Shown here in pieces: positions 2,615 to 59,928 of a DNA stretch of 64,000 nt (positions are counted from its first letter, which is position 1; each line of letters begins with the position of its first letter). The position numbers were made by a program, and so were the translations under genes. The DNA comes from Methylovulum miyakonense HT12 (GTDB taxonomy: Bacteria; Pseudomonadota; Gammaproteobacteria; Methylococcales; Methylomonadaceae): assembly GCF_000384075.1 (NCBI RefSeq), contig NZ_KB913025.1, positions 3,985,215 to 4,049,214 on the forward strand, written 5' to 3'. The notes below the pieces were generated by a model. The model saw only the letters and a program-made list of their open reading frames with translations, searched no databases and was not told the origin of the DNA.

Positions 2615-2631
2615 AATCCGCATCTAGCCAA

Positions 2632-19400: not shown

Positions 19401-19550
19401 CAGCGTGACGACTTGGATGGTGGGGTATTCGACTTGCGGCAGCGCGGAAATCGGCAGTTCACGGTACGCGAGGGTGCCGACCAGCAGCAAGGCCAGCATC
19501 AGCAAGGACGTGGCGACCGGGCGTAAGATGAACAGGCGGGAGGGGTTCAT
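16443..19550 (-). CDS. mdtB: RND efflux permease, MdtB-like
   Basis: A 1035-residue RND pump starting [20 protein letters not shown]. Helix 4 has [18 protein letters not shown] with the Asp pair, and helix 10 has [16 protein letters not shown] with the Lys. The N-terminal [26 protein letters not shown] and [17 protein letters not shown] segments are close to MdtB. It is followed by mdtC and preceded by the adaptor gene at a 124-bp gap holding a GTAGG palindrome. It would form the inner-membrane pump with MdtC. Its substrate is unknown. The ATG at 19550 has a GGAGGGG ribosome-binding site. Confidence 0.9.
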
Positions 19551-27168: not shown

Positions 27169-27199
27169 GTCTTTATCCCCTTAGAAAATAATAGTTGCG

Positions 27200-40291: not shown

Positions 40292-41497
40292 TTAAATAGG
40301 CTTAGGGATAATAGTCGCGGGTGCCCCTGTTTGCGTCCCTTGGACGCCTTTAGCACCATTAGTCCCGTTACCGCCCGTGCTGCCGCCACTGCCGTTACCA
40401 TTGTGTTTACCACCGGAACCGCCACCGCCGCCAGCACCGCCGACCCCGCCTGTACCACCAGCACCACCAACGCCTGGTGAAGCCGGCCCGCTTATCCCGT
40501 TAATATCATTTAAATAAGTGGCGGGTACATTGACAATGACATTGCCGGAGGCATTAACGCCATTGCCGCCTTGGCCACCTGTGCCACCATTGCCGCCCGC
40601 CCCGCCATTTACGCCATTGCCCGCACCTGATCCCGTACATCCGCAGGTCGCACCATTCCCGCCATTCCCGCCTATGCCGCCTGTCCCACCTTGACCGCCA
40701 ACACCACCCGTACCACCACCGCCAGATGCTGTAAACACAATGATAGAATTGGTGTTTTGTATAGATTGGTTAATGGTAATGGTGGCGGGCATGCTGGGTA
40801 AACCGTCAAAACCGGCCACACCTACACCGCCTGTCCCTCCGGTATTGCCTACGGTTCCATTTTGCCCCGAGTCTCCAGCAATGCCTGCACTGGAGCAGTT
40901 ACCGGCCTTACCCGTACTGCCATTACCACCCGTAGCCCCCGTAGCCCCTGCAGGGCCAGTCCCGCCCGTTACACCTAGGATATTAAAATCCCCCATTCCT
41001 GCTGGTGGGGTGCCATTTCTTACCAAGGTATCCATCGTATAATTCAAGGTGGAATTGTAAACTGAAACACAGGCTTGGTCGTTGATGGTCACCGTCCCGT
41101 AATTTAAAGTGATCATTAATTGCGAAGTGCCCAAATTGGTTGGGACATCGTAAGTCACGTTAGCTGCGGATTCGGCAAAAACATCCAAAGGGAAAGCTTG
41201 GTCAATAATTTCCCGGTCAGAATCGGCCAACACCCCATTGCCATAAACATAAGAATGCACCCGTCTTAACAGTCCGGCATCCGAGGTATCTGTTTCAGGC
41301 GAAGTCAACGGAATATGCCCAAACAATGCCTCTTCCCTTTTAGCCCGGTCTTCGTCAGAAGAGCCGTCATCCAATAGTTTTCTTAATTCTTCGATATTGG
41401 GGATGCTGATCACTGAAGCTATTTTATGGCCTGCCTTGAGCCCTTCAGCCGAATGCCCCAGCTTTTCCGCCCGTTCATAAAAACTTAATTTTTTCAT
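40292..41497 (-). CDS. Polyglycine/collagen-like protein, shared N-terminal module
   Basis: A 401-residue protein, the last gene of the 11-gene operon. Residues 1-65 form a helical module (KKLSFYERAEKLGHSAEGLK, then AGHKIASVISIPNIEELRKL) that recurs in the next gene as FYEKAALLGHDTDKLAAG. Residues 65-180 are beta-like, and about 180-395 is dominated by Gly in GG-x-GG triplets (TGGTGPAGATGATGGNGSTG, GGVGGQGGTGGIGGNGG). The triplet pattern suggests a polyglycine II or collagen-like rod. There is no signal peptide or lipobox. ATG 41497 has an AGGAAACC ribosome-binding site. A structural or adhesive surface role is inferred; the function is unknown. Confidence 0.75.
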   Translation of the reverse strand: MKKLSFYERAEKLGHSAEGLKAGHKIASVISIPNIEELRKLLDDGSSDEDRAKREEALFGHIPLTSPETDTSDAGLLRRVHSYVYGNGVLADSDREIIDQAFPLDVFAESAANVTYDVPTNLGTSQLMITLNYGTVTINDQACVSVYNSTLNYTMDTLVRNGTPPAGMGDFNILGVTGGTGPAGATGATGGNGSTGKAGNCSSAGIAGDSGQNGTVGNTGGTGGVGVAGFDGLPSMPATITINQSIQNTNSIIVFTASGGGGTGGVGGQGGTGGIGGNGGNGATCGCTGSGAGNGVNGGAGGNGGTGGQGGNGVNASGNVIVNVPATYLNDINGISGPASPGVGGAGGTGGVGGAGGGGGSGGKHNGNGSGGSTGGNGTNGAKGVQGTQTGAPATIIPKPI

Positions 41498-41545
41498 AGT
41501 GGTTTCCTATATTAAAAATAATGGGTTATAAAATGTAGATAAAAC

Positions 41546-42865
41546 TCACTGATATGAGGCCGCCATTTGCGGCGCTTCCACCAAAACGGTTTCACCTGTC
41601 CTTCTCTGTTCATTCACAAACATCCACGGAGCAGGCCGCGAACGCCCGTCCATACCATCTTTACCATCCGTCCCCGCTTCGCTGGCTAAACCATCGGCGC
41701 CAGGGATCACACCCTTTCCGCCTAAGCCAGCATGGCCCGCTACGCCTGCCTTGCCACCTCGGCCACCATAGCCCCCTTGAGATGCCAGGGTCATACAGCT
41801 GACTTGGGATTGTTGTCCGGTTGGCAGATTGATATATATATTAGAAGCCAACCCACCATTACCGCCCATGCCACCCTTACCCCCACTTCCTGCATTGCCC
41901 CCCTTGCCGCCGGTGCCGGCGTTTAACGTTTTTCGTATTAACTTATAACCCTGAGCCCCGTGGCCGCCGTGGCCACCATCACCGCCATCGCCGCCCCGAC
42001 CGCCATTGCCGCCCTGACCTGCCTGTGCAAAAACAGCCAGCCGTCCTTCCAGATTACGTACTGTGATTTCTGCCAACTTGCACATTCCCCCATTGCGTCC
42101 ATGGATGCCCGGTGCCCCATCTTTACCGTCACCGCCATCACTGCCACACATGGCTTCTTCAGTAATGTCATGGGTCAAGGTGTATCCCAAGATACTACTG
42201 CTGACGTGGGCTTGCTTACCGTCAACGCCTTGTCCGCCGTGCAGGCCATCCGCACCGCCGCCGCCATCCATATCGCCGTTTTTATTGTCAACTGAAAAAG
42301 GTGTCGGCAATATGCCCAATTGGTAATCGTCAGTGCCGTCCCCTGTTGGGGGTAAGCAAACCAGCCGTTGGCAAAGCAAAGAAAACACATTGCCCCTGAC
42401 GATTAATTTAGCTCCCGGCCCTATGATGAGTTCACCCACGTTGACAGCGGTATACAGCTCTTCCATATCATCTATGCCCCATGCTTCGCCCCTGACACTG
42501 ACATCCCAAACCTCCCCGGCGGGGATAGTTTTTTGTAGGACGCTGATGGCCTTGATATGGGCGGGCATGTGGTTGCCTATGCCTTGGTGGTCGCCATCCA
42601 ACAAAACACCGTCGGCAAACACCAGGGCTTCACCACGGTCATGTATGCCCTGCCCCAGACGCTGCCTTGCCTGCAAAGGCGGGTTGAAAAAGCTTTGTTG
42701 CCTAGCCACCCGCTGTGCGTCCGTAGCCATCGAAAGCAACCGCCTTCCCTCAAGCAACGAGGCAAAAGTGCCATAGGAAATAACGGTTTCCCCTGCGGCA
42801 AGTTTGTCCGTGTCATGCCCCAGCAAGGCCGCTTTTTCGTAAAATTCGTTCAAAGACCCATTCAT
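41546..42865 (-). CDS. Second polyglycine protein with the shared N-terminal module
   Basis: A 439-residue protein with the same N-terminal pattern as the previous gene: NEFYEKAALLGHDTDKLAAG near residues 6-25. A beta-like part (about 100-200) holds AGEVWDVSVRGEAWGIDDME and GELIIGPGAKLIVRGNVFSL. The Gly-rich part (about 200-410) is GG-x-GG and G-x-G repeats (AGQGGNGGRGGDGGDGGHGG, then GGKGGNAGSGGKGGMGGNGG), with Asp, Asn and His that could bind metal. No signal peptide. It is 48 bp upstream of the 401-residue gene and 18 bp after the glycosyltransferase gene. The paired modules make it likely that the two proteins assemble with, or are sorted by, the same partner. Function unknown. Confidence 0.75.
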   Translation of the reverse strand: MNGSLNEFYEKAALLGHDTDKLAAGETVISYGTFASLLEGRRLLSMATDAQRVARQQSFFNPPLQARQRLGQGIHDRGEALVFADGVLLDGDHQGIGNHMPAHIKAISVLQKTIPAGEVWDVSVRGEAWGIDDMEELYTAVNVGELIIGPGAKLIVRGNVFSLLCQRLVCLPPTGDGTDDYQLGILPTPFSVDNKNGDMDGGGGADGLHGGQGVDGKQAHVSSSILGYTLTHDITEEAMCGSDGGDGKDGAPGIHGRNGGMCKLAEITVRNLEGRLAVFAQAGQGGNGGRGGDGGDGGHGGHGAQGYKLIRKTLNAGTGGKGGNAGSGGKGGMGGNGGLASNIYINLPTGQQSQVSCMTLASQGGYGGRGGKAGVAGHAGLGGKGVIPGADGLASEAGTDGKDGMDGRSRPAPWMFVNEQRRTGETVLVEAPQMAASYQ

Positions 42866-42883
42866 TGTCCAATCACTTTTAAG

Positions 42884-44785
42884 TTAAATCCGCTTTTCAA
42901 GGCCTGCCATACCATCAATTCCATACCGGTAACTGGGGAGCGGTATGAAAGGGCGTTTAGCGGCTATGGTTTTCAGGTTATTTTTCATTAAGTTGGCTTG
43001 TAGCCAATTGTCAGGATGACGGATATTTTTTGTACAGGTACCTAGCACCGCATCGAGATAGCGGATCCGGTCAAACCCGGCCAATTCCATGAGCGCCACC
43101 ATCATGGCGGTTTCCGGGGCGGCAGTCAGCCATTGCCCTTTTTCATTTTTAAGGCACTCGTATGATGGATCCACCATGGCGATGCTCTGGTAGAGCCCCG
43201 CCCGAAAACTATTTAACCGGCTGACGCGGGGCTGTTGACGATGTTGTTGCAATTCCTGAACGGAAGCAAAGGGTTGGCTATCGCCTTTTTGCCCGGTGCT
43301 GTAGTTAAATTGGCCATACATGACCCAGCAATCCTGCTGTTGGTAAAATGCATTCACTTGGCTTAACGCATCGGCCCCTGCCAACCAATCCTCCCCGTTG
43401 ACTATCACCACAATGTCATCGGCATCGCAATGTCCGGTTATGGCCTCATGCAAACTGGCGGCATAACCCTGGCGAGCCGCATGATGGATTAGGGTTATTT
43501 GCCCATTTGCTTGGGGTAAATATCGGGGGCTTTCGTCAGTCGAAGCATCATTGATGAACAGGGTTTTGGTGTCCGGATAATTTTGCGCCAACAGCTGCTG
43601 CACATTAGTGTTGAGCGCATCTCCAGGATTGTTAAAGATGGTGACCACCATAATCCTATTGTCGGGACCGGCGATATTTTCTTTAGGGGGGAACAACTGT
43701 GCCAAGCACAATTTCCGCCCACGGATAGCGGAATTTTCGACATCGGCGGGCAAACCCTCCATGCCCAAGATGCTATTGAAGGCGCTGAGGGCCATAGCAA
43801 AGTATGCATTGGCATAAGCACAAACGGCATACTCCAATTGTAATAAGTAGCGGTAAACCGGGGTGTCGATAAACAAAATATCGCGGGTTGGCAAAGGCAT
43901 GCCATTGGCGGCAAAAGCGCACAATTGCCAAGCCAATTGGTATGAACCCTGTTCCCGCAGATACCTGACTACGGTATAAATGGGTTCGGCTCTGGAAGGC
44001 CTCATGGCATAGGCTTTCAACAAAGCTTGCACGGCTTCATCCCAGGGATAACCGCAAAGCAACTTCATCCTTCCCGCCTGCATTTGGGCAAACCACCGCT
44101 CTTCGTCCCAGCTATTTTCCATAGCGGCCCGCTGCTCATACCAATAAAGCGCGTCCTTGTATTTGCCCAAGTCCTTGTAGGATTGGGCAAGATAAAAAAG
44201 GCTACGGGCATTGCCCGGGTCTTTCTGCAAATCTTCCGTCAGTAGGCGGATGTCCCTTTCAAATTTGTCGCTACGCATCCCCCCATCGGCAAAATGCGTC
44301 AGGGTCAGCTCATCCATCCAGTCGATGTATTGCTTGGTTGGGGCATCTATATATTCATGGGTGACACCGACATAATGCCAGTTGTGGCGGGCGGCGACCA
44401 ACATGTGCTGTGTGTAAGACTCATCGCCTTCGTACCTGATTTCATAAGCATCAGCGGTCAGTTTGTGTTTGAATGGGGCATACACATTAACGGCCATATC
44501 CGCATCCAGGATAAGCAGGTAAGCGGCTTTGTTGCGGGCCAAGCGTACCACTTCGGTACGGTTGTGGCCAAAGTCCACCCATTTTGAATGATGCAGTTCA
44601 CCGGGTATATCAAGAAGGGTTTGTTGGATGATTTCCTCCGTATTGTCTGTTGAGCCCGTATCAACAATGACCCAATAATCAATATGCGGTTTGGCGGATT
44701 CCAATGCCCTTTTTATGACATGGCTTTCGTTGCGCACCATCATGCAAAGGCAAATGGTCTTGTTATTTTCCATAATATCAGACAC
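42884..44785 (-). CDS. Glycosyltransferase with GT2-TPR-GT2 architecture
   Basis: A 633-residue protein. Residues about 5-185 are a family-2 glycosyltransferase domain: TICLCMMVRNESHVIKRALE, then WVIVDTGSTDNTEEII, with a DAD metal site in ILDADMAVNV. Residues about 190-340 are TPR-like helices (SLFYLAQSYKDLGKYKDALY). A second GT2-like domain starts at about 375 (NRIMVVTIFNNPGDALNTNV, then TLFINDASTDESPRYL), but its acidic motif reads NGEDWLAGAD instead of D-x-D, so it may be degenerate. It would add sugars to an unknown acceptor, perhaps the beta-rich or polyglycine proteins of the operon. GTG 44785 directly follows the previous stop; ATG 44773 is the alternative. Confidence 0.8.
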   Translation of the reverse strand: MSDIMENNKTICLCMMVRNESHVIKRALESAKPHIDYWVIVDTGSTDNTEEIIQQTLLDIPGELHHSKWVDFGHNRTEVVRLARNKAAYLLILDADMAVNVYAPFKHKLTADAYEIRYEGDESYTQHMLVAARHNWHYVGVTHEYIDAPTKQYIDWMDELTLTHFADGGMRSDKFERDIRLLTEDLQKDPGNARSLFYLAQSYKDLGKYKDALYWYEQRAAMENSWDEERWFAQMQAGRMKLLCGYPWDEAVQALLKAYAMRPSRAEPIYTVVRYLREQGSYQLAWQLCAFAANGMPLPTRDILFIDTPVYRYLLQLEYAVCAYANAYFAMALSAFNSILGMEGLPADVENSAIRGRKLCLAQLFPPKENIAGPDNRIMVVTIFNNPGDALNTNVQQLLAQNYPDTKTLFINDASTDESPRYLPQANGQITLIHHAARQGYAASLHEAITGHCDADDIVVIVNGEDWLAGADALSQVNAFYQQQDCWVMYGQFNYSTGQKGDSQPFASVQELQQHRQQPRVSRLNSFRAGLYQSIAMVDPSYECLKNEKGQWLTAAPETAMMVALMELAGFDRIRYLDAVLGTCTKNIRHPDNWLQANLMKNNLKTIAAKRPFIPLPSYRYGIDGMAGLEKRI

Positions 44786-46579
44786 TTAACTTACGTCTTT
44801 CACATATCTTACGGACAGCGAGGATGCGGCAGGCAGGGCGTAAGCGCCCTCCAAGTAAGTTACCGAATTGCTTTTGCTACTGAAAGACAAATAATCCACC
44901 TTGCCGCCATTATTTACCCCTGTCCAATAATAACCGTAGACACTAAAGTTGGAGGGGACGCCATTAACGTCCATAGACCCGTTAAGTAGGGCGTCAAAAC
45001 CACTGTCGCCGCCCGCTATTAACTGGGCATAAGTAAAAGTGGTGATGAGGTTTTCCCAATCGTCTTTATTCGGCAATCTCCATCCAGACATATTTTGCGG
45101 CTGGGCGGCGGCATTAAATTGATACAAGCGTCCATATTGGGCTTCAGGGCCATACACTGACGAACCGGCAGGCGCCACATAGTCTAAGTTGGCCGACATC
45201 CATAGCCTGTTATTGGCCTTAACGACCGGATAGACCTTGCCGTCACGCGGGTCCACAAACATGTTGGCTTGTATGTAGACCGTGAACTGCATGCTGTTCA
45301 AAAAACCGCCCGTGCCATTGTAGGCTTGTAAGGTGATGGTCACCGCCGTGCTTTGGGTAGTGCCCGGTATGGTCACTACCGCATTGTCATAAGCGATGGT
45401 CGTCGGGTTCGGATAAGGCACATCAATAGGGCTAATGCCCGGAAAACTGGCGATGACGGTGACACTGGCGACATCAAACATAGCCCACCGCAAGGGGATC
45501 GCTATCGGTGTGTTAGGTTGGTTTACCGTATACAGGGGGGTCGGGCTAAAAAAGTTGATGAGCCCGCGGGTAGCAGGTGCATTCTGCTTCACCATGTCCA
45601 GGACAAATACCGCATCGTCGTAAGGCGTATTTTCATCTTTCATAAAACCGCTGAACTGCACAATCATTTGTGTATGTCCGGGCGGAGTGAAGGAAATAAT
45701 CTCGCTAAAACTAAAGGTGATATTCGCATTATCGCCCGTGCCGATAATGCCTTGGTTCAGCGCCGAGGGCTTGAGGAACCAGCGTGGATGGGCATCGGAT
45801 GAACCGGAAGACGGGTTCGTGGTGCCCCAGATATTTTGGGGCGGATTGTAAGGGATGGTGGCGGCAATGTTCCAAGCCGAACCACTGCCTGGCCCGACAT
45901 TGGTTTTGTTATCAGGGGCCAAACTCCCCGTTGAGGTGCCATAAACAAACACAACGGTGACCGTGGGGTTGCCCTGCCACATGGCGTCCCCAGAATACAA
46001 CGGGGCGCCGCCTATGTTTTTGATATTGAGGAAGACAGTGTTCTGTAAAGGGTCGCCCGAAGGGGAAACAATGACGCCGCCTTGGTTATCCAAAGAGACC
46101 TGTAACACTTTAGTCAGGTCGGCATTGCCCGGGACAGGCGGGTTGGAGACGCTTAAAGGTGCGGTGACCTGTGAAGGCACGCCATCGGAAAAATTGATGA
46201 AGGTCACTTGTGCCGTGTCCGTATTAGGCTGGGCAGTGGTTTGCACCCCTGTGACGTCAAAGCTGAACACGGCACCGTCATTCCACACTGGTGCGCCTCC
46301 CCCGCTGTACACCAACATCAAAGACGTGTCTTGGCTGTTCACACTAAATGCCCAGCCTTCAAGGAGGATGTGCATGTTGTCCAGATCCGAGAGGGCAAAG
46401 CATACCGGCAGGAAAATTTCGAAGGTGTTGGCATCCGTGCCGTTCCCAAACGTGATATTCGCGCCCGTTAAATTAGTTAATGAAAAAGTCAGTGTGGTGG
46501 CAGGTGAACCCGTGTAAACAACAGGCTTGCCTTCAGGGTTTGCCACAACCAAATTGATGCCATTATTTTCGTTTGCCAT
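44786..46579 (-). CDS. Beta-rich protein with C-terminal FISUMP domain
   Basis: A 597-residue protein without a signal peptide, starting MANENNGINLVVANPEGKPV. The first 430 residues are beta-strand-rich repeats of low similarity. From about 440 onwards is a Fibrobacter succinogenes major-paralogous (FISUMP) domain: DGKVYPVVKANNRLWMSANL, then YGRLYQFNAA, then SGWRLPNKDDWENLITTF, and VYGYYWTGVNNGG near the end. FISUMP domains are best known from Bacteroidetes and Fibrobacteres extracellular proteins. The gene is 62 bp downstream of the 1433-residue gene, the largest gap in the operon, and abuts the glycosyltransferase start. Probably structural or adhesive; function unknown. Confidence 0.7.
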   Translation of the reverse strand: MANENNGINLVVANPEGKPVVYTGSPATTLTFSLTNLTGANITFGNGTDANTFEIFLPVCFALSDLDNMHILLEGWAFSVNSQDTSLMLVYSGGGAPVWNDGAVFSFDVTGVQTTAQPNTDTAQVTFINFSDGVPSQVTAPLSVSNPPVPGNADLTKVLQVSLDNQGGVIVSPSGDPLQNTVFLNIKNIGGAPLYSGDAMWQGNPTVTVVFVYGTSTGSLAPDNKTNVGPGSGSAWNIAATIPYNPPQNIWGTTNPSSGSSDAHPRWFLKPSALNQGIIGTGDNANITFSFSEIISFTPPGHTQMIVQFSGFMKDENTPYDDAVFVLDMVKQNAPATRGLINFFSPTPLYTVNQPNTPIAIPLRWAMFDVASVTVIASFPGISPIDVPYPNPTTIAYDNAVVTIPGTTQSTAVTITLQAYNGTGGFLNSMQFTVYIQANMFVDPRDGKVYPVVKANNRLWMSANLDYVAPAGSSVYGPEAQYGRLYQFNAAAQPQNMSGWRLPNKDDWENLITTFTYAQLIAGGDSGFDALLNGSMDVNGVPSNFSVYGYYWTGVNNGGKVDYLSFSSKSNSVTYLEGAYALPAASSLSVRYVKDVS

Positions 46580-46641
46580 ACTTATGAATAATTTTTAGTG
46601 GTAACAGGAATGCTTAGGTGTTTTCAGCAACAACTCGTTTT

Positions 46642-49600
46642 TTAGTTCGTGTTGTCCGGTGCCGGGTTGGGGTCTGGGGTAAGGGCCAACCATCCTTCCA
46701 ATAAAGTTTGTGGCGTGTAATCCCAAGAAGAATTGCTATTGGACGCATTGGCGGCCAAAGGAACCTGGGGCTGGTCACCCGGATCCAGCCAACTCCACAC
46801 ATAGCCGCTCTGTGCTGGCAGGGGCACAATAAGCCCCTGCCTTTTTTGCAAGACTGGCGTGGTGAAGAAGGTCATTTGCAGGTTTTTAAGCGTATTGGAA
46901 TACTGGTCGGCAGGTATGCCCAGCTCCTCAACAGGCAGCACACCCGCAGTGGCATGAACTGCGGCCCTGGGGTCCATCAATAGCGTCAATACGATAGGGG
47001 ACGCATTCAACGTTAACTGGATATTGGTTGCCGACGGCACACTCACTCCGTGGGAACCGGAAGGGTTGGCCGCAGGCGCATAGAAAGTGCCATTGCCGTA
47101 GGGGTCAGTGGCATTTTGCTCGATGAGATAACCCACCAAGCCGTCATCAATATTGCTCAAATCCCCTAACCTCAGCGGAAACTGCACTTGATCCAGGTTG
47201 GCCGTGCTGTGGGCTATCCTATCCGTGTATTCATAACGTCCGGCATTGACATCCAGAGGCCAAGGGTCAGTGGCCTGGGTATCCGCCTGATTAAGCGGTA
47301 GCAGGTTACCGGATGTTTCCATACTGATTATGGACCGGCTAATGACCAGTGGCCGCCCTATCAGCACAGACAGGGAAGCGTCTTGGGCAAAATTGGCCGG
47401 GTTGATGTAGCGGTCAGAATTGAGTATCGCCTGCATCAGGTCGGTCAGAAAATCGCCGCTGCCTCCGGCACCGCCACTTTTATTATTGATGTACCACATA
47501 AAATTGGCTAAATGCACATTGACGGGAGGGTCGGTGTCGCCATAAGGGCCGATGTCTATCGACAACATGTCCGATGGGTTGTTGATATTTCCGGCGCGTG
47601 TCCGGTACCGTAAGTTTCCATGTTCCACACCAAATGAGCCCACGGCCGCCCCTTCTGCATCATAAAAGAAGAGGCTATTGTCCAAATGGTTGGGCAGCAC
47701 CCAACCGCACACGGGTGACGTGGCGGGATGGGTGTTCATTTCGACAAAATCGCTGCTGATACCACTGACCGCATTATTGTGCGCCGCACTCAACCAGTGG
47801 AACCACAACCGGGTGGGCGCAAGTATGCGGGGCGGCAAGAAAATTTTTCCGGCATTCGCGGTATCGCCAGGCAATGGCGCCATAGTCATGGCGGGGATGA
47901 CCTGCAGCGAGCCGTCCGGATTTTTTACGGGAGTGCCCAAGACCATCCTTTGCCCAAAGACATCCACCACCTCAAGGCCATTGACGCTAAAGAAACCACC
48001 CCGCAGCGGGCCAAAATTGGCTAACGCCTGTGGCCCGGTCGGGATGGGCGCCTGTGAGTTAAAGGCATAGTCATACCAGTTATCACCAACATTGGCCGTG
48101 AGCGCGGCATTTTTTATCGCGGTGGTGACTGAATCCCTAGAGCCCATGGTGAGGTCTTCCACGGATATCTGGGGTATGTAGTAACACAGCAATTGCTCCA
48201 CATTTAACCCGCTCATGGTTTGCGACAATATTTTCCGGCTTTTGTAGTCGTTGGATATTTGCGAAAGGGTGGGGTCAGCTGGATCGTTAGGATAATTGGC
48301 TTCGAAACTGTCGATTTGGTAAGTGAGGCTAAAGGTCGCTTTTTTGGACATCACCACGGAACTGTCGTAACTGACCTCATCGCCAGTTGTGATAGGCAAG
48401 TTGTTGACGCTGTACTGGTAATCAATGGCGTCAGGGTTTAGCTGGAAGAAATCGGTCAGGTTGGTGTTGCTGTAATCCAGCTTGTCCAATTTCTTTTGCA
48501 GCGGGTCGAGGCTAAGGTTCCAGATCAAACTGACTGGCAAAAACGGGTCATAACGGTTCTCGGAAAATTCCGGGTACTGCATTTGGGTGTTCCATTGCAC
48601 GGCATCAGGAACCCAACCGTTGGCGGCTGTGTTAGTGAACGTGACATTTATGGGCAAAGGCACCGTCACTGTCTGTACCGGGTTTGCAACCGGAACATAA
48701 TCCGGCTGACGGACGGCATTGTACAAACCGATTAGCGGAGTACCCTTTTCAAGCCCACTCACCCCGCCTTGGGTGTTGCTCAGGGCAGTGACAAATCCGG
48801 AATAGTCGGCCACCGCCGGATTAGTGCCGCCACCGCCTAAACCTTGTAAGGCAGTGGCCACATTGGGGGCTAAAGAAGGTATTAACAAACACGCTTCGCC
48901 GATGACTGCGGAAAAATCATCCTGATAAGGGATGCTGGTGTTAAGCGTTGCTTGCCCGGGAACAGTTGCCGCATTGATGCTGAAACCATTCCCGTTATAG
49001 CTGATGCCAAGCTGGCCCAGCAACTCCGGGGTAAGCCTCACCTGGATATCGCTGGTGGCCCCATTCCGGCGGGCGGGTTCCATACGGCTTCCTTCCATAA
49101 CCGCGACCGGGTCGGTAGGCAACCAAAATGAGGGGGCCGGCACGGCAATAATTTGCCAGTCAGGATATTCGTCCATTTCCTGTTTGAACTGGTTGAGTTT
49201 GTCCCACACGGCATAAGCGGCCGAGTTGTCGCCACCCGCAGGCTGCTGCACATCAATGACTGAACCTGAATTGTCAGGCGAGCTGATATAAACAAGCACC
49301 CCCACCGCGTTGCCTTTGTTGACCACGGCATCCAGTTCGCTTTTCCCCTTGGTGGTTAAAAAATTCGTGAGGGCATTGACACTGACGTTTGGGGAAACAA
49401 TATTGCCGGCATACATTTTTATATAGCGATACCAGTCCATATACAGTTGCCGGCGCATGAGCTTCAATGCACCACGCCCCATGTCATAATTTTTTTGTGC
49501 TTGGTTCAGGAGATTCAGTTCTTCGGCCAAAGTTAACGGCAAACTGATCTCCGTATCAGGATCAACCGGTGCGGGCGGTTTTGAAGGGTCCGAGGGCTTT

Positions 49601-50943: not shown

Positions 50944-50946
50944 AAA

Positions 50947-51879: not shown

Positions 51880-51884
51880 GGCTG

Positions 51885-53516
51885 TTAGTTTTTTGGCTGT
51901 TTTAAAGAAAGGATGGCATTGCGTAAGAAACTGCCTGCGGGCGGTTTCTGTTGCAGTGGCCTTCTTACGTGGACATCCGCTGCCAAGGTGTCACCTTGCG
52001 TGGTTTCGCCCGTTTTTAACTTTAGGGATGCTGATTGTGCGGGTATGCTTGCGAACACTGCACTGAAGCTTTCTGAAAGGACGCTATTCTCCACACTGTC
52101 AAGCACATCTTGTGACACCCCTTTTTTCCAGTTGTAAAGTGCGGTGGAAAAACTGGTGTCCTGCAACGCCATTTGCCTGCCCAAAGTCCAGGCGGCGGCA
52201 TACGAGACATCCAACATTCCCGTAGTGGGGTCAAAAATGGTCGCTTTGTCTGGCGATGGTATGGGTAAGTTAATGGCGGCTTTGTCTATTTGGTAAGGTG
52301 CTAACGGGCCGCGATACCAAGACACGGTCCTATCAATAGTGAATACGCCACTGGTGTATTCGGCGGCCCGCAAGTTATGGTTGAGCGGTACATAGCCCAT
52401 GCCCAAAGCGGCCTTTACAATCGGTATCGCCGCTTCCGGGCAAGTGAGCCGTAAGTTGGTGTTGGCAGCCAGATCCGCATTGGTCTCATGGTTTACTGGC
52501 GGTGCGGCATTGTTTAAGGCATTTAATTGGTCCACAAACGTCGCGCTTTCACCAGTGGAGTAAAAATTCCAACTTTTTAAAACCGCCAAACGCAACAATT
52601 TTGAAATGTCAGGCGTGAACCCATCCTGATTGTCAGGTGCACCACCGTCTTCACTGGTAGGTAGAAAATCTTCCATTTCTTCCAAAGAGACCAAATAGGC
52701 ATAAGTCTTTTTCATGGGGTTGGGCAAACGGTTGCCAAACACAATCGAGAAACTGCCCTCAGGCTCCCCGACATCCGATATGCCGGGCATGGTGGGCTTA
52801 TTGATCAGGCTGACTTTGCGGACGTGCGCCATTAGGCTGAGGTCGTTGATGGTAGGGGCGATTTTAAAAAACAATTCCAGCGGGATGTCCAATATTTGTA
52901 TGGTATCCGTCAGCTGGTCACCTGGATCAAGGTACGTGCTTAACGGCTTGCTTTGGTCAGTCACACCGTAAAAATAAGAATAGTTCGTACCTAATGTGCT
53001 TTGCGGGTTGGCGCTGCTTAAAAACAGGTCGCCGATGGCCGCATCTGCTGGTGTTAACTTAAAACTGGGGTATTGCCCTGCATAATTGGCAACATCATCC
53101 TCATCCAACAAAATAACCGTAAGCCATGTGCTCATATCCACATCCGTATCCTGGCCGGGAGACGGGGGGGCATTATCGAATTCTTCGTTAAGGGTTTTGG
53201 TCGGATAGCGTGACCAAGGGAAAGTGGTTTTGGTAAAGACCACATTGGGCAGTACGGTGTTGTATTCCCCTGAAGCATTTTCAGCGGGAAAAACCGAATA
53301 CACCAATTCCGTGGGCTTGCTCAACCGGAAACGGTCCCCGGTAACAGCAAAGCGGTAAGAGACCGAAAGCGAGTCGTCAGAAACGATATGCCCTTTGGCA
53401 TCGGTCACCTGCTGCGAAACATTTAATTGGTACTTGCCGTCTTCCAGCCCAGGAATGTCATGCTGGATAAACGAGACCAGTTGGTTCAGTTGCGGGTTGT
53501 TGGAATTGTCGCTCAT
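51885..53516 (-). CDS. 543-residue protein, family not recognised
   Basis: A 543-residue protein, MSDNSNNPQLNQLVSFIQHD, with a beta-rich N-terminal half (KYQLNVSQQVTDAKGHIVSD, then DRFRLSKPTELVYSVFP) and a mixed C-terminal half (AAYAAAWTLGRQMALQDTSF-like: DVSYAAAWTLGRQMALQDTS). No signal peptide or transmembrane segment. Lies 20 bp after the DUF6603-like gene and 5 bp before the 310-residue gene. It has no domain that I recognise. The three-gene block 543-310-1433 is probably a unit of the operon, perhaps a surface or injection-like assembly, which is inference. Confidence 0.65.
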   Translation of the reverse strand: MSDNSNNPQLNQLVSFIQHDIPGLEDGKYQLNVSQQVTDAKGHIVSDDSLSVSYRFAVTGDRFRLSKPTELVYSVFPAENASGEYNTVLPNVVFTKTTFPWSRYPTKTLNEEFDNAPPSPGQDTDVDMSTWLTVILLDEDDVANYAGQYPSFKLTPADAAIGDLFLSSANPQSTLGTNYSYFYGVTDQSKPLSTYLDPGDQLTDTIQILDIPLELFFKIAPTINDLSLMAHVRKVSLINKPTMPGISDVGEPEGSFSIVFGNRLPNPMKKTYAYLVSLEEMEDFLPTSEDGGAPDNQDGFTPDISKLLRLAVLKSWNFYSTGESATFVDQLNALNNAAPPVNHETNADLAANTNLRLTCPEAAIPIVKAALGMGYVPLNHNLRAAEYTSGVFTIDRTVSWYRGPLAPYQIDKAAINLPIPSPDKATIFDPTTGMLDVSYAAAWTLGRQMALQDTSFSTALYNWKKGVSQDVLDSVENSVLSESFSAVFASIPAQSASLKLKTGETTQGDTLAADVHVRRPLQQKPPAGSFLRNAILSLKQPKN

Positions 53517-53536
53517 GGTGTGTTTTTCCGTTTCCG

Positions 53537-56500
53537 TTAAGCTTCTAGGCTCTCACCTAGCATCATCACTTCAGGCCAATCGGTCAGGGCCGTTTGCGAT
53601 GCGAATGTGGTGAGGTTGGCAGTGCTGTATGTTGAAAATCCCAGCAGGTTAAGATTTTCGAAGATGGCCATCCTCTGGCTGCTCACCCAGGTGTCTGCCA
53701 ATGAACTGAGCACGTAGCCGGTATTCTTAAGTTCAGCCGTATGCTGGCCCGAAACCGTAACCGTCAAGGTATCTGAGCCTTCCCCTGTGCTGCTAACTTC
53801 ATAATCGTCATCAATGACTTGTGCTTGGTAAGAAAAATAATAGTTGTTGCCTTGCTGGTACAGCAGCTGTATCAGCAACACCCCGTTCACCCGATTCGGC
53901 AGCCGCGGTAAAGGCGTGATGTTAAAACCGGTTAGGCAAGCCTTCAAAAATGACGGGTCGGTGACCTTAGGTTTTTCTCCCGTGGAAGACTCCCATAATG
54001 CGGCGGATGAATCCAAAACCACCGGGGCCAATGACACGGCGGTGATGTATCCATAATTGCCTTGGTCATCCATCTTCAATAGGCTGATGGCCATGCTGGA
54101 AGTGACCCCGTTAAGGGCCATGGGCTTGATATTGACCGTAGGGTTCCAGATATGGGTGCCGTCCATCTGGTTGGCTGTATCGCCAAACGTCAGGTACGGC
54201 CATTGCGCCGCATCCACGGGCGGTGGGGAAACGTTATAATCGCCAGGGTCATTGGAAACCGGTTGGCTTGTGCGATCCCCGGTGCCCCATAACGGGGTAT
54301 TGGCCGGTAGGGTGCTACTCACCAGAATGCTGAAATGGTCGGGATCCAATATCCAGTCAAAGCCGTTCACATCGCTACCCAATAAACCAGCCGCCACAGT
54401 GGACTTAAGGATATTGGTGGATGCCGCGGCTTCGCCCGCCGTTGCCGCCATCGCCATTAAGGCCTTGTGGGGGGCGGGCTGTGCAGGTGTGTCCCCTGGC
54501 AAGAACATGGTTTTAAAATTCTGCCAACCAATAGGTTCCGGTTGTTCTTGTGCCGCCCCGAAAGAGATAGTGAAAGAAACGACATCCAAATCCACTTCCG
54601 CAACCCCGCCAAACGGAGGCCCCCACAATTGCAGGTCGGCCCCAACCGACACGTTCAGCGTGACCAAACCCAGATTGACCGAACACCCCACATTGACATA
54701 GACGTCCGCTTCATAATGGAAAGGGGCCCAGGCAATTAAAAAGTCGGCCCCAATAGTAAACCACGCTTTGATGACATCTAAATCCCATGTGGCATTCATC
54801 GAACCACCCGCCATAAACATGCCGGGGGTCAGTGCGAAATAACAACCGCCCGTGACATGGAACGGCCCTAAGTTAAAGTTGATCCCCAACCTAGGCACTT
54901 TGGGATAATAAGCAGGCGGTGTAAATGCCGGATGATAACCGCCGAGCGTCACAACAAAATCGCCAGTTTTAGGCCCATTGGCGATCACTGGCGGGTTGAA
55001 CCAGATATAAAAAGCAAAACCGCCAGTGATCTGGCAGAAACTGCCAAAGATATACGAAGCTGGGGAAATGATGCCCTCCACCGCCAACAAACCTGTCGAT
55101 GGGGAAAAGGATGCCAAAATGTCTATTTCCACATAAGCAATCGGGGTAGGCGCACCCGTAGGGAAATTCATGGAACAGCTGCCAAGCAAAGCCACTTGGA
55201 AATCCACCCCAAAGGAAACCGTCACCAAGGCAAAGGCGTTGATCATTTGGAACGATGAAAAAGTAACGCCTGCGGCCACCCAATATTGCCCCGGATCGGG
55301 AATAAAGTATTCCTGCATTTGCGGCAGCACAGTATTGATCGTGTCCGCAGCGGAGCCCCCTTGTGGAGGGGCTTTAGAATTCGGGCCTGGCAATAGGATA
55401 TAACCAGGCAAATTCTCGAGGGTGGGCAGCTTGAGCAAATCGTTTACACCAAAACCTCCGGCAAAACCATTCAGATAAAGATAAGGCGGCCCGCCGAGCG
55501 GTACATTGATATTGGCATAAATGAAAAAGGAAGCAGGGATCTGGATTTTTTGGCCCGCATGGTTAGGGTCATTGGCTGTATGTGCGGGTGTGTAACCACC
55601 CAATGCCTTAAACCCGATACTACCTACTTGGACAATAACTTGCCCATAATAAGCAGTGCCCCCGTCTTCTGCGGTGCTTTTCAAAAAGGCGCCGCCAATT
55701 TCAAGCCCACCCGTTTTGATGTCCATGGTCAGGCCATGCAAATCAAAACTAACCGTATCACCTGCGGGCATACCGGGCAAAGGCATAGGGAAAGTGATGG
55801 ACATCTCTTCTAGCCCTAAGGAAAAGCCGCCTAACGAAAAACCCGCCGAAAACCCAAATGAAGCTTCCCCTTTGCTGTAGTTAAGGCCAATTTTTTGCAA
55901 GTCCACCGGGCCGAATTTTTTATTGATGTTTATCCAATGCACTGAAGTGGCGGGCGGGCTGGTTTTGCCGCTACCAAAAGGTGGCGGCGGTGTCTGGCTA
56001 CTGGGTTTGGGGGTTGCCAGCAATGCCATAGGCAAGGCAAAATTACTGCTGGCATTGCCGCTTTTTGACAAACCCGCCGTTAATGAAAAACCTTTCTTGT
56101 TAAGGGCGAAACTCTGTTTGTTGCCATCTGTTTTAATGCTGTACGTGTTTTTGTTCCTGGCCTCAGGGTCATTACGGGTGTATAGCAGGTTGGCTGAAGA
56201 ACCCACTTGCGGGATATTGAAAGCGACTGTCTTATCGGACACGTTGGTGTAAGAAAAGCCAATGTTGGTGAGGGACAACTCGTTAAAACCCGGCACATCC
56301 CCCACTAACGGCAAACTGGCAAACGCCAAGTTTACATTGACCGATGCCCCCACCACATAAGCGTTACCCGTCGTATTGCCGCTAAGGATCGTGTCAGCAT
56401 AAAAATTAAAGACGTAATGGTTAGCGTTGATGATTAAGTCGAAACTTCCTGCGGCGCCCAATTCAGTGGTCGTGTCCCCCTGCGTAGGTTTGGTGTAAAT

Positions 56501-56746
56501 TACTTGGCATACCAAATAATCAATCCAGGCTTCAATATCCAATTCAGGCGGCAATTGCACATCTACCCCAAACTGTTTGCCCACATAGCCAATAAAATTG
56601 GACAACGGTATTTCCGCGTCTTGTACGCATCCGTTAAAGGTATAAATTGTCTTACCTTCCGGCGTTTGATAACCGACACCCAAAGAAACCGGCACCGAGC
56701 CGATTTCCAGATTAAGCCCTGCAATTAATTCAACTTCTGTGGACAT
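53537..56746 (-). CDS. 1069-residue beta-rich protein, DUF6603-like
   Basis: A 1069-residue protein starting MSTEVELIAGLNLEIGSVPV. N-terminal residues 1-120 form a beta module that resembles the 167-residue product of the next gene upstream (FNGCVQDAEIPLSNFIGYVG compared with RQPEDPPVTVYLGDVIAFIE). The centre is long extended beta-strands with Gly/Pro turns (PPPFGSGKTSPPATSVHW, IPFG-like motifs). Near residues 700-712 the segment LQLWGPPFGGVAEVDLDVVS resembles the LWGPPFGG motif of DUF6603 proteins. No signal peptide. The function of the DUF6603 family is unknown. It is 12 bp after the 167-residue gene and 20 bp before the 543-residue gene. Confidence 0.65.
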   Translation of the reverse strand: MSTEVELIAGLNLEIGSVPVSLGVGYQTPEGKTIYTFNGCVQDAEIPLSNFIGYVGKQFGVDVQLPPELDIEAWIDYLVCQVIYTKPTQGDTTTELGAAGSFDLIINANHYVFNFYADTILSGNTTGNAYVVGASVNVNLAFASLPLVGDVPGFNELSLTNIGFSYTNVSDKTVAFNIPQVGSSANLLYTRNDPEARNKNTYSIKTDGNKQSFALNKKGFSLTAGLSKSGNASSNFALPMALLATPKPSSQTPPPPFGSGKTSPPATSVHWININKKFGPVDLQKIGLNYSKGEASFGFSAGFSLGGFSLGLEEMSITFPMPLPGMPAGDTVSFDLHGLTMDIKTGGLEIGGAFLKSTAEDGGTAYYGQVIVQVGSIGFKALGGYTPAHTANDPNHAGQKIQIPASFFIYANINVPLGGPPYLYLNGFAGGFGVNDLLKLPTLENLPGYILLPGPNSKAPPQGGSAADTINTVLPQMQEYFIPDPGQYWVAAGVTFSSFQMINAFALVTVSFGVDFQVALLGSCSMNFPTGAPTPIAYVEIDILASFSPSTGLLAVEGIISPASYIFGSFCQITGGFAFYIWFNPPVIANGPKTGDFVVTLGGYHPAFTPPAYYPKVPRLGINFNLGPFHVTGGCYFALTPGMFMAGGSMNATWDLDVIKAWFTIGADFLIAWAPFHYEADVYVNVGCSVNLGLVTLNVSVGADLQLWGPPFGGVAEVDLDVVSFTISFGAAQEQPEPIGWQNFKTMFLPGDTPAQPAPHKALMAMAATAGEAAASTNILKSTVAAGLLGSDVNGFDWILDPDHFSILVSSTLPANTPLWGTGDRTSQPVSNDPGDYNVSPPPVDAAQWPYLTFGDTANQMDGTHIWNPTVNIKPMALNGVTSSMAISLLKMDDQGNYGYITAVSLAPVVLDSSAALWESSTGEKPKVTDPSFLKACLTGFNITPLPRLPNRVNGVLLIQLLYQQGNNYYFSYQAQVIDDDYEVSSTGEGSDTLTVTVSGQHTAELKNTGYVLSSLADTWVSSQRMAIFENLNLLGFSTYSTANLTTFASQTALTDWPEVMMLGESLEA

Positions 56747-56758
56747 GGCAATGTTTCT

Positions 56759-57262
56759 TTATGAAGGAGATTTTGAGGTGGCGCTGAAGGAAATTCCCAG
56801 GCTGTTGATTTTCACCCAATTGTTAAGCTCGCCAGGTAGGGCGATAATACCTTTCGTGGGGTCAGCCCCTTCAACATCAATGTTGATGGAAAACAAGAAC
56901 TCTTTATCGGTTGAGTTAATGGTAAATTCGTAAATATTCACCAGCAATTGGTTGGATGAATTGAAACTTTCAGGGGTAATATTTGCATCCGGTTGTTTAA
57001 ACAGCACCGAAAGCGCGTCCATCCCAGGGTTGCTTGCCAAACCACCGGCCCCCACCCCCAATTGGTCTTCAATAAAGGCGATAACATCCCCTAAATAAAC
57101 GGTTACAGGCGGATCTTCAGGCTGACGGTTCAGCTTAAACAGAAAACCATTACTGACCCCGTCCTGCGAATTGCTGTCACCAAAAACAATTTCTGAAAGC
57201 AGGGGTACGGTTTCCTCCCCCACTTTTAAAACTGCGCTGAAAGATATTTGTGTTGTGCTCAT
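56759..57262 (-). CDS. Small beta-rich protein, paralogue of the DUF6603-like N-terminus
   Basis: A 167-residue protein, MSTTQISFSAVLKVGEETVP, all beta-like with a LNRQPEDPPVTVYLGDVIAF segment that resembles the corresponding part of the 1069-residue neighbour. It has no signal peptide, no cysteine and a short polar C-terminus (SFSATSKSPS). It looks like a single-domain version of the neighbour's N-terminal module, perhaps a chaperone or capping subunit. It lies 23 bp downstream of the 389-residue gene. Function unknown. Confidence 0.6.
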   Translation of the reverse strand: MSTTQISFSAVLKVGEETVPLLSEIVFGDSNSQDGVSNGFLFKLNRQPEDPPVTVYLGDVIAFIEDQLGVGAGGLASNPGMDALSVLFKQPDANITPESFNSSNQLLVNIYEFTINSTDKEFLFSINIDVEGADPTKGIIALPGELNNWVKINSLGISFSATSKSPS

Positions 57263-57285
57263 TGGTTTGTCTTGTGTGTTTTTAT

Positions 57286-58455
57286 TCAGCTTGCGCTGTA
57301 CGCTACCGATATGGACAGTTGCTCCACCGATAGGGGAATTTTTTCAAACAGGCCAAAACCACCCGACATGACAATCGAAGTGGAAAACTCATTGATAGTG
57401 CCCGTGGACACATCCGCACTGGTATCAAACTCAAAACTGTTTACCGTGATGTTGTCGCCTATGCCTACGTTAGTCCCCTGCCCCATCAAATCCTGCAACA
57501 TGACATTCACTGACTTGCCGGCAGGATTTTCCAGATAGGCGGCGATGCCGAACGTGTTGTCCGTTGAGCTAGGAAACGTCATGGTGAAATCGAAGGTAAA
57601 ATCCGGGTCACTTAACCCCACCGGCCCCGGATTGGCATAATTGCAAAGCTTTACCGACCCAAGCAACCCCCACGTCACCGCAGCATCCGATGTGGGATTG
57701 GTGACCGTCACCCAAACGCCTAAGGGATCCAAATAAAGGGCGTTGCCCATCAGCGGCAACTTTGAAATGCCGACTTCAACGTTGACAGAATTGATTGAGA
57801 TGCTGAAAGACGGTGCGAGGGTCACATAGCAAAGTAGCGACATGCTCAGTAACCCGAAAGACGTTTGCCCGGCAGAATAAGGCCCCAACTCCGTTGAAGG
57901 GAACCAGGCATTGCCTTCGGCCAACGGGCCCATCAAGAAATTCAGGTCATTAAGGCTGATGCCCACCCCGGTAAATTCGCCGGAAAGGTAAAAGAACCCG
58001 CCATTCATAGGCACCTGGGTATTAATGTCCACACTGGCTGAACCGATGGCGATGGTGACACCGAGGCTAAACACATCGGTCGGTGGTGAATCGCCTTCAG
58101 GGTCGGTCTGGGATGAAACGGTGTTGATATCCAACCAGGCATTTTTGGTGATGCTCCCGCCAATCAAGGGGATACAATTGGCAATCGCTTGGGTAAAATC
58201 CTGGTCATTGGTGGAACGCAGGGTAACCGTAAGGGAAGCACCGGTAGCGTCCACGGTGCCGCTTAACGGGATGCTGCCCATCCCTAGCATGGTTCCTATT
58301 GTGCTAAGAGCCGTGCCGGTAGCGTCCACATCCAATGTGCCGGTAAAATTATTACCGTTTAACGAGTGCTCGGAGAACACTAACAGGCTGAGTATGGAAT
58401 ACTGCAACGATGGATAAGTGCTGCCGTATTGGTCGGTGAATTTCCAGTTAGCCAT
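57286..58455 (-). CDS. 389-residue beta-rich protein, DUF6603-like composition
   Basis: A 389-residue protein starting MANWKFTDQYGSTYPSLQYS with a beta-rich fold and regularly spaced extended strands (SLGVTIAIGSASVDINTQVP, then GGFFYLSGEFTGVGISLNDL, then GLLSMSLLCYVTLAPSFSIS). The strand pattern and the V-D-I/T-G turns are similar to those of the 1069-residue protein, so they are probably related. No signal peptide or membrane helix. It lies 12 bp downstream of the EEP gene. Function unknown. Confidence 0.6.
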   Translation of the reverse strand: MANWKFTDQYGSTYPSLQYSILSLLVFSEHSLNGNNFTGTLDVDATGTALSTIGTMLGMGSIPLSGTVDATGASLTVTLRSTNDQDFTQAIANCIPLIGGSITKNAWLDINTVSSQTDPEGDSPPTDVFSLGVTIAIGSASVDINTQVPMNGGFFYLSGEFTGVGISLNDLNFLMGPLAEGNAWFPSTELGPYSAGQTSFGLLSMSLLCYVTLAPSFSISINSVNVEVGISKLPLMGNALYLDPLGVWVTVTNPTSDAAVTWGLLGSVKLCNYANPGPVGLSDPDFTFDFTMTFPSSTDNTFGIAAYLENPAGKSVNVMLQDLMGQGTNVGIGDNITVNSFEFDTSADVSTGTINEFSTSIVMSGGFGLFEKIPLSVEQLSISVAYSAS

Positions 58456-58467
58456 TTCAACAAGTCC

Positions 58468-59484
58468 TTAATATTCGATTATCATCGGTAGATGGTCGCT
58501 TACTTTGTTGTAATTGTTCAAAACCGCCACCAGATTGTTGGGATACAGCGCCACCGGATTAAGCGGTTGGGAAACATTCCTGGCATTGCCTATGAGATCA
58601 AGCACATACTCGGAAATGCCCCCAGGAGCGACACTAAAGTTATACAACAAATTGTCATACGCCTCTGAAAGGTAATTGCTAGGCTGGGGATTGACATTGG
58701 CAACCCTTGTCCTGACGCTGCTAAGTGTGCCATTGGGAATAAGCGAATTGTAGTTCCATGCCAGTAACTGGTTAAAACCGGTAACGGCCACCCCAAAGCC
58801 GTTGGTGTAACTAGAACCCGGGTTACAGTTAAAATCCCCCATAATAAAATAATCCGTCGGGCTTACAGCCGCAGTGGGGTCCAGCTCACCCACAATGCCC
58901 AACTTTCTAACATAATCTATTGGCGGCCTATACCTTACATTGGCACCACCTTTTACTGGCGGCGCATGGATCCCGACAATTTTCGTGGTGGTCGTGCCTT
59001 CCACTAATGACGCCATAAATGGTGTCCGCGGGTTGATGTAGGCATTATTGTTATCACGAAGGGAGATTGTGGCGGGGTTGGCATTAAAAACCAAGTTGTT
59101 GAAGATTACGCCTACCGTTTCATGGTTACCGGTTATCTTTGGGGTGGCGAAAGAATACTGGTAGTTGTTGTTGATATTTCGGGTTACAGCCACTTGGTTC
59201 ATAGCATTGGTGATTGCCGTGATTGTCGGGAGGCAAGTCCCGCTGACCGCCTGATTTTTATTATGCCCGCCCGTTTTCAACTCAATGATTACGAAAATAT
59301 CCGCCGGATTGTTCGATAGGCCCGCCAACCCCCATAAGTTGCTCCATGCCGCATCGCCCATCACTAATTTCATCATATAATCCAACACATTATTGCCTAG
59401 GCCATAGGGGGTGAATGTGTTGGTAAAAGCATTGCCTAATTTGGTTTGGCCGATGTTTTTTAAGTTCCAGCAAACTATTTTCAT
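58468..59484 (-). CDS. Endonuclease/exonuclease/phosphatase-fold protein, first gene of operon
   Basis: A protein of about 338 residues with the EEP fold (DNase I / AP endonuclease / sphingomyelinase superfamily). It starts MKIVCWNLKNIGQTKLGNAF (the VCWNLKN motif is the first core strand), and has DIFVIIELKTGGH (Glu metal site), VGIHAPPV, a DYFIMGDFNCNPGS motif (Asp/Asn) and the terminal VSDHLPMIIEY (catalytic Asp-His). So the catalytic residues are intact. No signal peptide is visible at ATG 59484; ATG 59514 (MNFNLTT) is an alternative start. Substrate could be DNA, a phospholipid or a nucleotide. It is the first gene of the 11-gene operon, which makes it a possible effector. Confidence 0.8.
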   Translation of the reverse strand: MKIVCWNLKNIGQTKLGNAFTNTFTPYGLGNNVLDYMMKLVMGDAAWSNLWGLAGLSNNPADIFVIIELKTGGHNKNQAVSGTCLPTITAITNAMNQVAVTRNINNNYQYSFATPKITGNHETVGVIFNNLVFNANPATISLRDNNNAYINPRTPFMASLVEGTTTTKIVGIHAPPVKGGANVRYRPPIDYVRKLGIVGELDPTAAVSPTDYFIMGDFNCNPGSSYTNGFGVAVTGFNQLLAWNYNSLIPNGTLSSVRTRVANVNPQPSNYLSEAYDNLLYNFSVAPGGISEYVLDLIGNARNVSQPLNPVALYPNNLVAVLNNYNKVSDHLPMIIEY

Positions 59485-59928
59485 ACTCTTAATTGTCGTT
59501 AAGTTGAAATTCATAATTTCTGATATAGAAACTTGCGGGCGCAATTTAACAAAGCATCGGCATTAAAAAAAATGACTATTACCTAAAAAAAAGTGAAAAA
59601 TCCACACTGACTGCTTTGGGTAACCCCAATCAACTGATTATTAATAATTTAGTTCTTTTATTTTTTCTTTCGTTTTTATATAAAAATGGAAAAAAAACCG
59701 AAATATGGATAGCTGTTCACAAAATAACCGGTAGTTCCTGACCGCCTTGCTAGGGAATCATGATCCGTTTCCCCAAGATACCCTAAGCACGCAAAGGAAT
59801 TTGTACGGTTCTTGAAACGAATTTTTTGGGAAAACCGCCTTCTTGTAGACCGGGTTTCGATGACCCTTACCCGAATAACTCGCACAACCGGGGGTGTTCG
59901 GCAAGCATCATCAAAATTGGCTTAGAAC

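Follow-up and report, generated by a model that had tools for sequence, protein, structure and literature searches.

What kind of system is encoded by eleven tightly packed genes that, as a set, correspond to no characterised system that we could find? This question is raised by an operon of Methylovulum miyakonense HT12 that lies on the minus strand, from 59544 to 40292, of the stretch of 64,000 nucleotides analysed here (assembly GCF_000384075.1, contig NZ_KB913025.1, positions 3,985,215 to 4,049,214; hereafter the window, to which positions refer). We find that five of its genes, here called D, E, F, G and H, are a core that has moved between distant bacterial groups. Two features absent from an earlier note on this DNA, a variable gene slot before D and a variable C-terminus of H, suggest a function. 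Specifically, we propose, with the chances for and against about equal in our judgement, that the operon encodes a mobile, leaderless, multi-subunit particle of a new type that would deliver one enzyme effector to target cells.

An operon of eleven packed genes

We named the genes in the order of transcription; counts are loci with the gene among 88 loci described below.

58468 to 59484, minus strand: A, EEP-type enzyme (DNase I/phosphoesterase superfamily) by its motifs, 338 residues, occupant of the variable slot; 9 loci
57286 to 58455, minus strand: B, 389 residues, corresponding by hhalign to the N-terminal region of long DUF6603 proteins; 7 loci
56759 to 57262, minus strand: C, 167 residues, aligns weakly (hhalign) right after B on long D proteins; 7 loci
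53537 to 56746, minus strand: D, DUF6603 protein (PF20248), 1069 residues, core; 75 loci
51885 to 53516, minus strand: E, 543 residues, core, no recognised domain; 69 loci
50947 to 51879, minus strand: F, 310 residues, core, no recognised domain; 63 loci
46642 to 50943, minus strand: G, 1433 residues, core, anchor of the 88 loci
44786 to 46579, minus strand: H, 597 residues, by profiles a conserved region (about residues 8-440) and a C-terminal FISUMP domain (453-594), core; 68 loci
42884 to 44785, minus strand: I, GT2-TPR-GT2 glycosyltransferase, 633 residues (PF00535, 2e-20, two stretches), accessory in part of the J/K subtype; 6 loci, one with a fragment (full length in 5)
41546 to 42865, minus strand: J, 439 residues, by composition an N-terminal part and five glycine-rich segments (41-58% Gly), polyglycine protein; 8 loci
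40292 to 41497, minus strand: K, 401 residues, J-related, by composition six glycine-rich segments (40-67% Gly), polyglycine protein; 8 loci

The listing of open reading frames (ORFs) confirmed the eleven packed genes of the earlier note and their gaps of 0-62 bp: the ORFs encode 358, 389, 167, 1069, 543, 310, 1433, 597, 633, 439 and 401 residues and are separated by 12, 23, 12, 20, 5, 3, 62, 0, 18 and 48 bp. Because relatives of A open with MKIV or MKII, A probably starts at the ATG at 59484, giving the 338-residue protein, and not at the TTG at 59544. The nearest same-strand ORFs of at least 100 residues lie at 60588, 1103 bp upstream, and at 39768, 523 bp downstream; the upstream gap of 1.1 kb contains ORFs of up to 71 residues, and beyond it lies a sensor-kinase-like gene on the same strand. 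Promoter-like and terminator-like matches between positions 39000 and 58999 on both strands were not in excess over shuffled sequences (26 versus 22.0, standard deviation 5.2, and 26 versus 27.1, standard deviation 5.7, respectively). These scans give no sign of an internal split, nor do they prove a single transcript. The G+C content along the operon is 46-53%, compared with a range of 46-58% in the window. The genome, assembled as a single 4.69-Mb contig, is 99.97% complete and has one match each for the E, D and H profiles.

The core recurs in distant bacteria

A G profile run against a collection of 84,980 species retrieved 267 relatives. The best 80 of these yielded 77 loci which, with the window and ten loci from whole genomes, make up the 88 G-anchored loci. 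L026 and L055 lie on the same contigs, as do L033 and L079; counts of slot and gene order omit L026, L033 and L109, which are the same or nearly the same as L055, L079 and L095, respectively. Several of the absences in the 88-locus counts concern contigs that are short or cut. DUF6603 occurs in nine of 299 genomes of the phylum, and G in the same nine; a tenth match to G (L035, G200) reflected low complexity in a flagellin and was left out of the 88 loci.

The whole order from A to K is present on one strand in L040 (Flexibacter sp. ATCC 35208), L041 (a Lewinella metagenome-assembled genome (MAG), with H doubled) and L062 (Algoriphagus resistens), and in an Acidobacteria MAG (L036) all eleven genes are found, B being inverted and A divided between two ORFs. 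Therefore, the set co-occurs in distant bacteria; the neighbourhood comparison that the earlier note had named as its refuting test left its claim standing, in that the gene set recurs and the module is real. Two of the note's statements need narrowing. We found no characterised counterpart of the operon, but three other genomes contain it complete and with its order unchanged, and the Acidobacteria MAG nearly so. Likewise, the conserved unit is not eleven genes but D-E-F-G-H, while I, J and K belong to one subtype. Among 72 loci with D and G, the order D-E-F-G(-H) is found in 42 and a cyclic permutation of it (GHDE, GHD, GHDEF or EFGHD) in 21.

The 70 G proteins placed on a tree by a quick method come from twelve named phyla, with four unplaced entries. 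Phylum changes 35 times on this tree, compared with a minimum of 12 and a mean of 44.1 in shuffles, none of 200 of which was as low, supporting that the module was partly inherited and often transferred. The window copy has the Taibaiella chishuiensis copy as its sister (support 100), falls within a set made up largely of Bacteroidota and lies far from another Methylovulum copy (L079). E matches were also found in eight of 72,556 plasmid records, four from Streptomyces and two each from Embleya and Paenibacillus; in the two annotated plasmid copies inspected, the genes are labelled DUF6603 and hypothetical proteins, while a third record carries no annotation.

We also considered a phage or prophage origin. 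A tblastn search with G gave no match in 50,697 phage records, and of the candidate stretches that pattern scans returned from viral contigs, 6 for the G profile and 57 for the D profile, none was confirmed; on these grounds this origin was rejected. A Foldseek comparison of D with viral proteins returned three matches with E up to 0.001, none of them informative.

Differing enzymes precede D

The gene directly upstream of D, which we refer to as the slot, encodes an EEP protein, a metallo-beta-lactamase (MBL), a lipase, a patatin, a deaminase or an M91 peptidase in different loci. In 63 loci the sequence before D extends for 1 kb or more; sequence patterns placed 36 of these slots in seven classes (EEP 14, MBL 12, HCNTEQ family 5, M91-like 2, and lipase, patatin and deaminase 1 each), and missed the EEP proteins of L036 and L078. 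Slot proteins at or over the Pfam cut-off include matches to Bd3614-deam (9e-13), Lipase_3 (2.4e-15), patatin (3.6e-6), Peptidase_M91 (2.4e-6, L060), Exo_endo_phos (5.3e-8, 33.3 bits, L085) and Lactamase_B (7.2e-5 in L037 and 1.2e-10 in L111). In addition, the slot protein at L063:996-3044 matches DUF4135 (1.3e-21), a domain of lanthipeptide dehydratases. The window protein A carries the motifs WNLKN, IIELK, GIHAP, GDFN and SDHLPM, and the EEP motifs WN, E, GDFN and SDH are found in A and in the proteins of L040, L041 and L042, while that of L062 lacks the GDFN pattern. Searches of PDB sequences gave no match up to E 1 for A and none for the L085 EEP protein. An OTU domain at the end of the L038 and L043 EEP proteins, suspected on the basis of a motif, was supported by neither Pfam nor a PDB search and was dropped.

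A recognised enzyme precedes D in 22 of the 42 loci with the order D-E-F-G(-H) and in 13 of the 21 with a permuted order. Mapped on the G tree, enzyme class changes 16 times over 35 labelled loci, compared with a mean of 17.8 in shuffles, 25 of 200 of which were as low; thus, slot class hardly tracks the core. We compared 16 pairs of loci for core identity, slot and H end. The window and its sister L037 carry an EEP and an MBL, respectively, in the slot, although D is 62% identical between them and E, F, G and each of the two parts of H are 64% identical. In L056 and L060 the slot holds an EEP-motif protein and an M91 peptidase, respectively, against 61-65% identity across D, E, F, G and the H conserved region. 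Between L078 and L110 neither slot nor H end matches, at identities of 66% (D), 60% (E), 55% (G) and 52% (conserved region of H). Within each of these three pairs, and between L058 and L063, named slot ORFs gave no match. The slot enzyme was kept in L045/L068, L038/L043, L054/L057, L067/L072, L040/L041, window/L042, window/L062 and L051/L056, the last pair with 43% identity between the slot proteins.

H proteins end in exchangeable domains

H proteins share a conserved region of about 400 residues, followed by a C-terminus that may be a FISUMP domain, a phage tail collar, Kelch repeats, a lactonase propeller or Jacalin. The window H exceeds the cut-offs for FISUMP in both PF09603 (1.1e-12, 49.1 versus 33.9 bits) and TIGR02145 (3.6e-19, 70.1 versus 41.65 bits). 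Among the 51 H proteins that were aligned, the Pfam families listed (25 of 47), which overlap, include Laminin_G_3 (10), Collar (9), Lactonase (9), S74 (7), Kelch_1 (4), Gp10_C (4) and FISUMP (3). Collar domains follow the conserved region in L079, L088 and L091, Kelch in L047, propellers in L058, L060 and L067, and Jacalin in L103; LamG precedes it in L079. The conserved region starts beyond residue 200 in 12 ORFs, and single scans of the L064 and L085 proteins gave no match.

No significant PDB matches for the core proteins

D exceeds the Pfam gathering score for PF20248 by a wide margin (8.6e-130, 434.1 versus 27 bits) and is predicted to form a long amphipathic beta-meander at about residues 270-730 (pLDDT 71.8, pTM 0.52), with strands that alternate in hydrophobicity (mean difference 2.6 versus 1.4 in random windows). 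B aligns with the N-termini of 43 long D proteins (hhalign probability 98, E 2.4e-13), whereas the alignment of C with long D proteins is weak (probability 58, E 1e-4). Moreover, C and D are a single ORF in L042, and a single ORF joins E and F in 27 of the 63 loci having both. This correspondence of B and C with D, together with the fusions, favours a physical complex, and we infer from these sequence relationships that the products act in one.

Neither E nor F matched any entry in profile libraries including Pfam and PHROGs; searches of the PDB gave nothing significant for E and a best E of 0.51 for F. None of the D, E, F, G or H profiles had a significant match in PDB sequences, and the only PHROGs match of the core proteins was a weak one for H (0.032). 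A model of a G homologue is confident (pLDDT 91), and no relative of it was found in the PDB. J-type relatives match K, and vice versa; J had no significant match in PDB sequences.

As the earlier note had noticed, signal peptides are not evident: none was found in relatives of D (0/75), E (0/69), F (0/63) or H (0/68) by a simple hydrophobicity rule applied to uncurated start codons. The same rule flagged 11 of the 88 G relatives; the eight displayed have a conserved LIVP-type strand near the start and not a signal peptide.

Comparison with known systems

The earlier note knew of no characterised system with this set, and we found none. No paper on DUF6603 (PF20248), and none describing the gene set by its title or abstract, was found in a search that did not extend to preprints and most subscription papers, so that a description under another name is possible.

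The closest parallels are with extracellular contractile injection systems (eCIS), including Photorhabdus virulence cassettes (PVC) and the antifeeding prophage (Afp), in which one apparatus is used with varied effectors and the fibres have varied binding ends, S74, lactonase, collar and propeller-lectin ends being reported among them (PMC12923769). The H family resembles such a fibre in combining a constant region with a variable binding end. A notable share of PVC systems lacks immunity genes, and distant targets have been suggested (PMC3482391). In contrast to eCIS, no sheath, tube or baseplate family was recognised by a Pfam scan that took in ten of the eleven operon proteins (all except K).

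Identity with a toxin complex (Tc) was rejected: the SpvB/TcB component has no match in the whole genome and, unlike in Tc toxins, the enzyme is on a separate gene. Polymorphic toxins likewise have a conserved partner and interchangeable enzymes, several slot enzymes being of toxin-domain classes (by post hoc motif definitions), but the effector gene here is free-standing and not a C-terminal fusion, and an adjacent immunity gene was not recognised in the window. In composition only, the runs of glycine-rich segments in J and K recall the polyglycine sandwich described for the phage S16 gp38 adhesin (PMC6851490), although J has no significant sequence match. Finally, D matches outer-membrane beta-barrels and ushers only at a root-mean-square deviation (rmsd) of about 12 A, and ApoB at 25 A; unlike the barrels and ushers, D has no evident signal peptide, and the module is also found in Actinomycetota and Bacillota.

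A hypothetical delivery particle

A conserved core with varied enzymes and a varied tip, the lack of a recognised immunity gene or signal peptide, and the spread over phyla together follow the logic of eCIS and Tc toxins without their parts. In the proposed particle, the giant amphipathic beta-protein D, together with B and C, would hold the effector or conduct it, presumably through insertion into the target membrane, and E, F and G would form a scaffold between D and the tip. H is presumably the receptor-binding tip, its constant region carrying an exchangeable binding end, here FISUMP. The EEP-type enzyme A would be the cargo in this genome, in place of which relatives put other enzymes in the slot. 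J and K may be additional polyglycine adhesins or parts of a stalk, and I might glycosylate J and K or H. An extracellular assembly had been suggested in the earlier note; we likewise envisage that the particle would leave the cell by some route and act outside it, with D as a possible channel. Whether this amounts to a new class of effector delivery, with a leaderless DUF6603 carrier, a new-fold scaffold of E, F and G and the exchangeable tip H, unrelated to phage tails, Tc toxins and known secretion systems, we regard as a tentative idea, somewhat less probable than the particle itself.

Several observations weigh against this proposal. The operon contains no recognisable export, lysis or immunity gene and, as the earlier note had remarked, no recognisable secretion machinery; it also contains no further non-overlapping ORF of at least 100 residues, which leaves room for very small immunity genes. 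Because beta-barrels match D only at the rmsd given above and its single strands are unexceptional (95th percentile of random windows 3.8), D as a channel is a guess. Slots without any recognised pattern number 27 of 63, and the slot protein of L058 matches nothing in Pfam. Many of the EEP and MBL proteins fall under the Pfam cut-offs, including the EEP proteins of L043, L038, L051 and L054 and the window A itself (Exo_endo_phos, E 0.05, 13.8 bits with a cut-off of 24.5 bits). The HCNTEQ slot family has no known function; it may be nuclease-like, and the four of its six members that were scanned had no convincing Pfam match. Of 62 slot ORFs, 32 contain slot motifs, compared with 3 of 279 other ORFs of the same loci (one of the three being a tandem copy of a slot gene), but because the patterns were written after viewing the sequences, this contrast is post hoc and descriptive. 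Kelch and FISUMP (Fib_succ) ends, moreover, have no occurrence in the eCIS fibre study (PMC12923769).

An intracellular conflict or anti-phage system, in which D-H would form a sensor complex and the slot enzyme would be an abortive-infection effector, is unlikely but is the strongest of the alternatives. We retained it because the MBL of L037 resembles effectors of intracellular defence systems, matching the PADLOC models LmuA (3.7e-15), Avs1a and RTasMBL. The leaderless proteins and the patchy distribution, plasmids included, would also suit such a system, CATRA and CHAT genes are found near one Streptomyces plasmid copy, and patatin, lipase and nuclease effectors are frequent in defence. 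However, A, D, E, F, G and H of the window match none of 5027 PADLOC models, the Collar, S74 and Jacalin ends of H point to binding outside the cell, and no ATPase or nucleotide switch is among the Pfam matches of the ten window proteins scanned. In addition, the M91 family, which carries the Pfam name Effector protein, is known from injected effectors.

Lectin-like H ends, polyglycine proteins, a glycosyltransferase and hydrolytic enzymes could instead belong to a cell-surface complex for adhesion and degradation, with H, J and K as binders of polysaccharide or matrix and an enzyme acting on extracellular nucleic acid, phosphate or lipid for nutrition. We consider this quite improbable: relatives of D, E, F and H lack a strongly hydrophobic N-terminus by the hydrophobicity rule, whose scope does not include lipoboxes and sorting signals, and a deaminase or an M91-type peptidase fits scavenging poorly.

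Still less probable, and in our view very much so, is that the operon is a satellite that equips an eCIS encoded elsewhere in the genome with an effector and fibres. A sheath-bearing cluster does lie about 0.7 Mb away on the same chromosome, and some H ends are like eCIS fibre ends (PMC12923769). Yet a sheath match is found in two of the nine module genomes versus 52 of 299 overall, so there is no tie to sheath genes across genomes and the module is not an eCIS appendix; furthermore, the D, E, F, G and H profiles match no ORF of the eCIS-like region, to which the core is unrelated in sequence. This eCIS-like cluster is at about 3.338-3.361 Mb on C1 (L126 from 16155, and L127), where the sheath was tested by profile and the other genes were named by inspection. 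A chance string of unrelated ordinary genes, for which nothing more than the lack of recognised domains speaks, is contradicted by the conserved order in distant genomes, the fusions and the strict co-occurrence of D and G, and can practically be dismissed.

Neighbouring genes

In a proteobacterial subtype of the module, a shared protein of 1122-1274 residues follows G (L028:12731-16210, L029:11742-15566 and L030:12901-16269), with no Pfam match for that of L030. A family with an SPDII-like motif recurs beside the module (L045:18046-18954, L047:586-1617, L051:17594-18610, L058:17483-18511, L065:14293-15372 and L068:586-1548); its L047 member has no Pfam match. Just upstream of the Acidobacteria MAG operon, inspection identified two phage-tail-collar-like proteins (L036:1-1032).

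In the window itself, a lipoprotein-like protein with an MBL-type C-terminal half and seemingly its own signal peptide is encoded just downstream of the operon (38302-39768, minus strand) and is probably unrelated to it. Elsewhere lie genes for a cytochrome bd oxidase (1428-4761), an efflux cluster (9122-19550, minus strand; AcrB-type, outer membrane factor) with an 809-residue TPR protein, and a DUF1501 protein adjoining a PSD1/PSCyt2 (DUF1553/DUF1549) protein (25723-29650, minus strand), a pairing known from planctomycetes.

Significance

If the proposed delivery of an enzyme is true, a whole type of machine for protein delivery or biological conflict would have been overlooked across many phyla because its core proteins are annotated as hypothetical or DUF6603. 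DUF6603 would gain its first testable role, and the gene upstream of it would become a marker for finding effector enzymes, while G adds a large protein with a confident homologue model for which no PDB relative was found. Even with delivery set aside, a mobile module of five genes that is exchangeable at two ends is an unexpected finding.

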